Translations under genes and position numbers: made by a program
Notes under the pieces: model-generated
Told to the model about the DNA's origin: nothing
Databases searched by the model: none
What the model saw: the letters and a program-made list of their open reading frames with translations, nothing else
Assembly: GCA_937951345.1 (NCBI GenBank)
Contig: CALFCF010000009.1
Span: forward strand, 62,001 to 126,000
Reading direction: 5' to 3'
DNA: 64,000 nucleotides
Origin: an uncultured Granulosicoccaceae bacterium
GTDB lineage: Bacteria; Pseudomonadota; Gammaproteobacteria; Granulosicoccales; Granulosicoccaceae
In this document: piece after piece, positions 8,463 to 63,812 of the stretch
How the letters are laid out: the number at the start of each line of letters is the position of its first letter
Position numbering within the stretch: the stretch's first letter is position 1

Positions 8463-8496
8463 GTGTAAAATTCAGCGATTCTGGTTCGCCGCTTAG

Positions 8497-8636
8497 GGGG
8501 CCTCTGATTTATTAGGCGAGGCAGGCAGGGCAAGGCGAAATTTGGCGAAAAAGCGGAGTGTATATGCGAATACATGGGCATTTTGAGCCGAATTTCAACG
8601 CAGCCCTGGCAACGCAGGCAATAAATCAGAGGTTCC
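8497..8636 (-). mobile_element. Element B copy 1 (140-bp MITE-like)
   Basis: A 140-bp element with 17-base inverted ends (GGAACCTCTGATTTATT at the right end read inward; the left end has GGGGCC instead of GGAACC). It is flanked by a TTAG target duplication (8493-8496 and 8637-8640). It is inverted relative to the two copies at 58.5 and 58.7 kb and nearly identical in sequence. It encodes no transposase. A 4-bp YTAR-type duplication is what IS5-group transposases leave, so it is probably moved in trans by such an enzyme (inference). It lies between the acyl-CoA dehydrogenase and enoyl-CoA hydratase genes. Confidence 0.88.
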
Positions 8637-8845
8637 TTAGATAAGTCGCGCTCGCGCAACTGGTTTGTTCGTGGATTTATGTGCTTGCACAGTACCGCCG
8701 ACCACAGCGATGTTTGCCTTGCAAGTGCTATCGCCGTAAAAATCGAGTGTAGTCTTCACAGGGTTTCGTGTTTTAATCTGCAATCGCAGCTCTCGGCATT
8801 ATCAGTGCGCAAACCTCATTTCTTTTGTTAGTTTCAGGTAAAGCC

Positions 8846-40776: not shown

Positions 40777-41017
40777 CCTGCTTTATTCATGAAGGGTTCG
40801 CCACCAGAGTCTGGCTACCTAAGCAGGTCGCACGATTGAGCGACATTCGTAGAAATCTACGGGTTGAGCTCAATCGAGTGAGCTGCGACGGCAGACGGGG
40901 ACTGGGGGTGAATAGAAAACAGTGTGCGAACACCCACAGCGACGCTAAAACTGCTTTTCTAACTGGAAATTGCTTAGTTTTCATTGTCACTGTTTTCGCC
41001 TTCGTGAATAGAGCAGG
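40777..41017 (-). mobile_element. Element A copy 2 (241-bp MITE-like)
   Basis: Same 241 bp and same orientation as copy 1. Target duplication is CTAG (40773-40776) and CTGG (41018-41021), one mismatch. It begins four bases after the cadherin-like gene's stop codon. Eleven bases directly after the right-hand duplication (41022-41032, CCTGCTTTATT) repeat the element's own left end, suggesting a remnant of a second element. Confidence 0.9.
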
Positions 41018-58442: not shown

Positions 58443-58489
58443 GATGCGCGTTACGAACTAATTAAAAGTTTAAAAGATTAAAAGGTTAA

Positions 58490-58629
58490 GGAACCTCTGA
58501 TTTATCGCCTGCGTTGCCAGGGCTGTGTTGAAATTCGGCTCAAAATGCTCATGTATTTGCATATACACTCCGCTTTTTCGCCAAATTTCGCCTTGCCCTG
58601 CCTGCCTCGCCTAATAAATCAGAGGTTCC
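58490..58629 (+). mobile_element. Element B copy 2 (140-bp MITE-like)
   Basis: 140 bp with perfect inverted ends GGAACCTCTGATTTAT and a perfect TTAA target duplication (58486-58489 and 58630-58633). It is in the same orientation as copy 3. It stands in the divergent promoter region between the DUF3429 and FAN1-like genes. Confidence 0.92.
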
Positions 58630-58735
58630 TTAACTTATTGACTGACCGAAGTGTTTAATCGGTTTTAACAATGAAGGTTCTGTTATAAATTCTGTTTTAA
58701 AAAAGTCAGCTTTAAATGGATCTGAACTAACCTGG

Positions 58736-58875
58736 GGAACCTCTGATTTATTGCCTGCGTTGCCAGGGCTGCGTTGAAATTCGGCTCAAAATGCTCATGT
58801 ATTCGCATATACACTCCGCTTTTTCGCCAAATTTCGTCTTGCCCTGCCTGCCTCGTCTAATAAATCAGAGGTTCC
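58736..58875 (+). mobile_element. Element B copy 3 (140-bp MITE-like)
   Basis: 140 bp with 17-base perfect inverted ends (GGAACCTCTGATTTATT). The target duplication is CTGG (58732-58735) and CTAG (58876-58879), one mismatch. It is 106 bases from copy 2 in the same direction and 98 bases before the FAN1-like start codon. Confidence 0.9.
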
Positions 58876-58973
58876 CTAGATTGTAAAAGGTTAGCCTTCC
58901 CGGATAATCCGGATCATAGCTGTATCGACCTGGGTTGCGGCGACTAGTGTAGCCTGCCGACACGCACGAGTAC

Positions 58974-63371: not shown

Positions 63372-63812
63372 CTATTTGCGAGTAGATCGCGTTCTGCGTG
63401 AAACCGGCTTACGTCGTGTAGTCGCCTTGCGAACCGGTTTTTTAGTAGCAGCCTTACGCTTGGTAGCGGTCTTCTTGCGAGCAACAGTCTTCTTGGCAGC
63501 CTTGCGAACCGGCTTTTTGGTAGCAGCCTTACGTTTGGTAGCGGTCTTTTTGCGTGCAACAGTCTTCTTGGCAGCCTTGCGAACTGGCTTTTTAGTAGCA
63601 GCCTTACGCTTGGTAGCGGTCTTTTTGCGTGCAACAGTCTTTTTGGTAGCAGACTTACGGACCGGCTTCTTCTTGGTGGTCGCCTTTTTCTTTGTGGCAG
63701 AGCGTTTCTTAGCGGCTGCCTTTCCAGCTGCTTTCTTTTTTCCTACTGTACGCCGCGTTGTCGATTTAGGAGACTTTCGCGTAACAGTCTTTTTGGAAAT
63801 TTTTGATTTCAC
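63372..63812 (-). CDS. Histone-H1-like Lys/Ala-rich repeat protein
   Basis: A 146-residue, extremely basic protein of Lys, Ala, Thr, Arg and Pro. Three nearly identical 25-residue repeats (AKKTVARKKTATKRKAATKK-PVRKA) fill residues 60-135, after a KKKAAGKAAAKKRSATKKK stretch. It is like the H1-type proteins AlgP/Hc1-like of Gammaproteobacteria, which bind DNA non-specifically. The GTG at 63812 has TGAGGAACACCTC before it; an upstream frame to 63857 adds 15 residues with no ribosome site. Confidence 0.88.
   Translation of the reverse strand: MKSKISKKTVTRKSPKSTTRRTVGKKKAAGKAAAKKRSATKKKATTKKKPVRKSATKKTVARKKTATKRKAATKKPVRKAAKKTVARKKTATKRKAATKKPVRKAAKKTVARKKTATKRKAATKKPVRKATTRRKPVSRRTRSTRK
63396..63640 (-). 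repeat. 75-bp tandem repeat within the H1-like gene
   Basis: Three copies of a 75-base unit encode the 25-residue Lys/Ala repeats. The units are nearly identical in DNA, so copy number may vary between strains. Borders are approximate. Confidence 0.75.

Follow-up and report, generated by a model that had tools for sequence, protein, structure and literature searches.

What kind of mobile element is the 140-bp sequence that recurs at this locus, what moves it, and what is its interior for? The window, the whole 64-kb stretch of DNA analysed here, is C9:62001-126000 of a 4.49-Mb draft assembly of 115 contigs (G000). A preliminary description had reported three exact 140-bp copies of a MITE, element B, bounded by 17-bp inverted ends, and we re-found both the copies and the ends in the window (Table 1). 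The 17-base end had six matches there against 0.09 expected. Copy 1 lies in the opposite orientation to copies 2 and 3, as had been described. Each copy had also been assigned a 4-base duplication; those of copies 1 and 2 are perfect, and the third is imperfect. The 140-mer, for which one long hairpin had been considered, folds as a single long imperfect hairpin (RNA z = -7.1 and -9.5, DNA z = -6.6). Elsewhere in the window (63424-63650), three tandem 75-bp repeats lie in a minus-strand ORF whose product resembles a lysine/alanine-rich histone-H1-like protein.

Table 1. Positions of element B, its target duplications and hairpin cores, with related sites; coordinates are those of the window unless a contig is named.
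Feature	Position	Strand	Basis
Target duplication TTAG, left of copy 1	8493..8496	.	
Element B copy 1, 140 bp	8497..8636	+	
Hairpin core, copy 1	8522..8611	-	model R1, 91.8 bits, E 1.5e-27
Target duplication TTAG, right of copy 1	8637..8640	.	
Empty site within element A copy, GGAAATTGCTTAGTTTTCATTGTCACTG	40965..40992	+	comparison with L004, L005
Target duplication TTAA, left of copy 2	58486..58489	.	
Element B copy 2, 140 bp, orientation opposite to copy 1	58490..58629	-	
Hairpin core, copy 2	58515..58604	+	model R1, 93.8 bits, E 3.3e-28
Target duplication TTAA, right of copy 2	58630..58633	.	
CTGG, imperfect duplication, left of copy 3	58732..58735	.	
Element B copy 3, 140 bp, orientation opposite to copy 1	58736..58875	-	
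Hairpin core, copy 3	58761..58850	+	model R1, 93.1 bits, E 5.4e-28
CTAG, pairing imperfectly with CTGG, right of copy 3	58876..58879	.	
Cores of second family, ends TAGAAGCCATCTCAAAA (none in the window)	C1:39098-39186; C90:11633-11721; about 26 more (L281-L300)		

The claim that element B was transposed, not locally duplicated, held when the whole genome was searched. With up to 3 mismatches allowed, the 17-base end gave 146 matches, compared to 2 with a control pattern. Near-identical copies of element B listed by blastn numbered 41, and the core model gave 57 matches above 60 bits, a count in which the same copy may appear twice as some matches sit at contig ends. Of the 41 distinct copies for which both flanks are available, 36 measure 140 bp. 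The predicted YTAR bias was borne out: 73 of the 82 flanking 4-mers are YTAR, and 28 of the 41 copies have identical 4-mers on both sides, 27 of them YTAR (TTAA, CTAG, CTAA or TTAG) and one CTTT. Where the flanks are unequal, they are mostly YTAR at either side even so, as expected if element B copies had recombined with each other. Element A copies in the window retain an uninterrupted GCTTAGTTTTCATTG; at two loci elsewhere in the genome (L004 and L005) element B is inserted there, at the TTAG of element A, with TTAG duplicated on both sides. The uninterrupted site is a direct empty site for the insertion of element B. The element is short and multicopy, carries terminal inverted repeats and lacks a transposase gene, as is typical of MITEs. 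Several loci (L004:1505-1644, L005:1505-1644, L045, L058, L063) have element B or a B2 variant nested at one and the same site of element A, which suggests that A+B composites moved together. In four B copies (L011, L029, L034, L040) element A sequence adjoins just one side and the YTAR flanks are unequal, a pattern that copy-copy recombination, or misassembly at repeats, would produce.

The interior of element B carries an ~89-nt hairpin core, which in copy 1 reads GGCAAGGC..GCGGAG-stem-TGAGC..AACGC on the plus strand. With element B as query, relatives matched in the middle part alone; these matches lay in other families and under other ends. The reading of element B as a MITE with YTAR duplications stands, and the wider point is an interior hairpin core common to many MITE families. 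When 53 cores were aligned with MAFFT, pairing was seen in 89.4% of helix cells compared to 69.8% after shuffling, and both-side changes numbered 301 against 94.6 in shuffled and 47-69 in slid controls. RNAalifold recovered the fold unaided, with both-side changes in 20 of 27 predicted pairs. The asymmetric internal loops, GCGTT/GCCTT and TCA/CT[C/G]C, are nearly invariant. Since retrieval by exact motif biases the conservation of the motif letters, the analysis was repeated on cores fetched by the model. Among 62 such cores less than 80% identical, where some bias remains as the model was built from motif-selected cores, the loop letters were conserved at 0.95-1.00 for TCA, 0.82-0.97 for CT.C and 0.97 for the G of GCGTT, and the flanking helices varied while these letters held. 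In two core alignments (A1, A2), the first stem pair is T-A or C-G in almost every core, although its neighbour varies freely. The paired helix changes together with the near-invariant loops suggest that selection acts on one particular strand in folded, single-stranded form, either RNA or DNA. When non-standard helix cells were read as CTCAAAATGCTCA..CTCCGC, A.C exceeded G.T (75 vs 47, a modest difference alone) and pyrimidine pairs were far above purine pairs, with part of this strand inequality coming from a few columns. On this reading, the excess of A.C and pyrimidine pairs implies that the opposite strand carries tolerated G.U and G.A pairs, which points indirectly to that strand as the one that folds.

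Element boundaries, located by inverted-repeat search, place the core inside MITEs with about ten end types, which differ by lineage. Target habits follow the end type: YTAR for GGAACCTCTGAT and CAGGCTGTTGAAAAA, and TTA/TAA for some GAACCTGTTC elements. Ends of one type can be joined to more than one inner arm, two in the case of GGAACCTCTGAT and three in that of CAGGCTGTTGAAAAA, and a single inner arm can lie under several ends, with some of these combinations resting on one element. Such mixing of ends and arms is hard to explain without exchange of ends. The source genome itself holds a second family of core MITEs, of ~155 bp and about 28 copies, with the same architecture as element B. Elements with CTGTGTCACAAAG ends (L076, L079, L105, L152, L187) have flanks that are complementary from one side to the other (TCCTA/TAGGA, ATTTTA/TAAAAT), a pattern resembling insertion at TA within palindromic targets.

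At least 117 stretches from named genomes contained the exact motif CTCAAAATGCTCA-N8..24-CTCCGCTTTTTCG, and the matches listed include Pseudomonas, Halomonadaceae, Marinomonas, Nitrosomonadales, Gallionella, Magnetococcales, Chromobacterium and many Alistipes/Rikenellaceae MAGs. The core model, a covariance model (R1), matched 107 of 229 sampled genomes of the class Gammaproteobacteria (95 of 196 genera), 113 of 299 genomes of the phylum sample, other classes included, and 7 of the 40 genomes from the family to which the window belongs. Cores often occur in tens of copies per genome: Salinicola tamaricis has 66, P. chengduensis 74 and two Rikenellaceae MAGs 58 and 70, with a maximum of 79 among named genomes; a 2.4-Mb genome (G246, L326) has at least 146 in a compact form of about 68 nt. 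The presence of the core in Bacteroidota rests on the named Alistipes/Rikenellaceae MAGs. Contamination of the Alistipes MAGs is unlikely because proteins adjoining the cores fit Bacteroidota, for example a SecA of 1099 aa that exceeds the cut-off for PRK12901, which we take to be the long SecA type typical of that phylum, and a weak match to the BT3442 family. Blastn gave no match in phage records or in E. coli, and the exact 26-base pattern was found in 2 viral contigs. At the gathering threshold of Rfam 15 the window had no match, and seven loci searched at E<=10 gave only weak, chance matches below the gathering score.

A core conserved merely through recent or repeated horizontal transfer, with no selection on its fold, would account for this patchiness, as seen within the window's own family, and for the copies found on plasmids. 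However, cores below 80% identity retain their loops while their helices change in pairs, and end types differ by lineage; we consider transfer by itself an unlikely explanation.

To what mobiliser do the ends of element B point? A genome of another genus in this class, assembled as one contig (G157), contains an IS of 1191 bp (L333:1304-2494) with one end identical to that of element B over 17 of 17 bases. The opposite end of this IS is GGAAGGTCTGATCTATT, and it is flanked by CTAA on both sides as a target duplication. The 318-aa protein of this IS scored 370 bits against NF033581 IS5_4 (cut-off 140) and matched PF01609 and DUF772. A related IS of 1187 bp has CTAG at either side, and the ends of a Salinicola IS resemble those of Salinicola's MITEs. 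From these sequence matches, an IS5-family transposase is the likely mobiliser of element B. The candidate is taken from another genome because no relative of the matching transposase was found in the 95.5%-complete source assembly, possibly owing to loss or an assembly gap; a PF01609 search of the source genome gave two matches, neither with B-type ends nearby. Three solo ends (L046, L048, L053) were considered as autonomous copies and rejected, as they are only decayed ends beside host genes. A matching transposase in the same genome is not strictly defining for a MITE, and MITEs can outlive their partner. The suggestion that two related transposases serve elements A and B is plausible, as the ends of element B match an IS5-family IS of another genus; the transposase of that IS was nevertheless not found in the source assembly, and no mobiliser was identified for element A.

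Ends shared with an IS5-family IS are also what would be seen if element B were an ordinary IS deletion derivative, the usual view of MITE origin (PMC10969869), with the interior an IS leftover and the hairpin incidental. The IS ends examined (L333, L342, L347, L334, L339) lack the core, however, and the ends of the 1191-bp and 1187-bp ISs do not contain the interior of element B. Moreover, in two phyla the core turns up again beneath ends that are unrelated, with paired changes, and a deletion origin of this kind appears rather improbable. About as improbable is a core with a host function, whether in termination, mRNA stability or regulation. The hairpin is stable and there are copies downstream of genes such as tuf or secA (L312, L113), but a host cis-regulatory role is disfavoured because the orientation of the core is unbiased relative to flanking genes, with 6 vs 7 in the source genome and 24 vs 22 elsewhere by crude ORF calls.

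One strand of the core's inner loop reads GGAG, a small stem and then ATG or GTG in 60 of 62 diverse cores (ATG 52, GTG 8), as a translation start carried by the core would. The internal loop accounts for those letters, however, and the arm contains a stop in 16 of the 62 cores. Translation initiation is thus very unlikely, and the peptide reading was rejected on these stops and on the missing coding pattern of the peptides. A REP/REPIN-type element moved by a RAYT, which a hairpin with GGAG beside the stem might recall, is scarcely credible, since such elements lack long terminal inverted repeats and target duplications, and the long terminal inverted repeats, 4-bp YTAR duplications and IS5 match of element B indicate a DDE enzyme.

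We propose, with a probability of roughly 0.78, that element B is a non-autonomous, IS5-mobilised MITE belonging to a superfamily with a selected hairpin core and exchangeable ends. An IS5-family DDE transposase supplied in trans would recognise the ~17-bp inverted ends and insert the element at YTAR, duplicating 4 bp. The superfamily would be built on a single conserved core, about 89 nt as modelled, whose terminal repeats could be exchanged to match different IS5-type elements and whose fold would be kept through paired helix changes around nearly invariant asymmetric loops. The core may most plausibly act as a cis signal aiding the spread of the element; we put such a selfish role, in the form of RNA or single-stranded DNA, at about even odds. 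Three B forms of 47-61 bp (L047:190-250, L054:1989-2035, L059:1985-2045), which have lost internal sequence but retain intact ends and the duplications, are each singletons, which is compatible with a need for the core in amplification and lends it slight weight. The core is not required for every MITE in the source genome, because element A amplified there without one. There is an even chance, in our estimation, that the core is an ancient selfish module of Pseudomonadota and Bacteroidota, a bacterial analogue of the CORE-SINEs, that survived by swapping ends to use successive IS5-type transposases, with some conserved factor, of the host or of transposition, reading its folded strand.

The common view of bacterial MITEs is that each is debris of its own insertion sequence, unrelated to the others. 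If the proposal is correct, a structured core found under different ends in several families and phyla would make many MITEs one lineage, MITEs could be found by fold instead of by ends, and what recognises the core would become a testable question. The core is widespread, yet it was found neither in Rfam nor in the literature searched, which hints at a large undescribed family of bacterial selfish DNA. No relevant paper was found for the letters of the core or ends, most subscription literature lying outside the search. Single MITE families are described in the accessible portions of PMC10969869, PMC3189936 (MITEPsy1), PMC5896051 (Coxiella QMITEs) and PMC4133298 (TIMEs); a core common to families with different ends is unreported in those portions, and an earlier description may exist.

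Among known systems, MITEPsy1 of Pseudomonas syringae is reported to be a short MITE of 100 nt with a 4-nt duplication at CTAG or YTAA, ends resembling the IS5-family IS ISPsy2, and demonstrated transposition (PMC3189936). MITEPsy1 is like element B in its small size, its 4-nt duplication and its IS5-like ends, but those ends are of the GGAAGGTCTGAAAAAGCC type and differ from those of element B. An element with MITEPsy1-type inner ends (L371), used as a stand-in for MITEPsy1, is ~99 nt long with YTAR-like flanks and did not match the core model. TIMEs, Tn3-derived MITEs, are likewise non-autonomous, with conserved core stretches and stable predicted transcripts, but differ in their Tn3-type ends, 262-bp length and 5-6 bp duplications (PMC4133298). 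The IS5 family (NCBIfam IS5_4) shares the 17-bp B end, in the IS at L333, and the YTAR duplication; in contrast, element B has no transposase gene and the IS ends have no core. Eukaryotic CORE-SINEs also join a conserved centre to different, partner-specific ends. They are retroelements, and we claim no evolutionary relation, but a conserved centre under varied ends is common to both.
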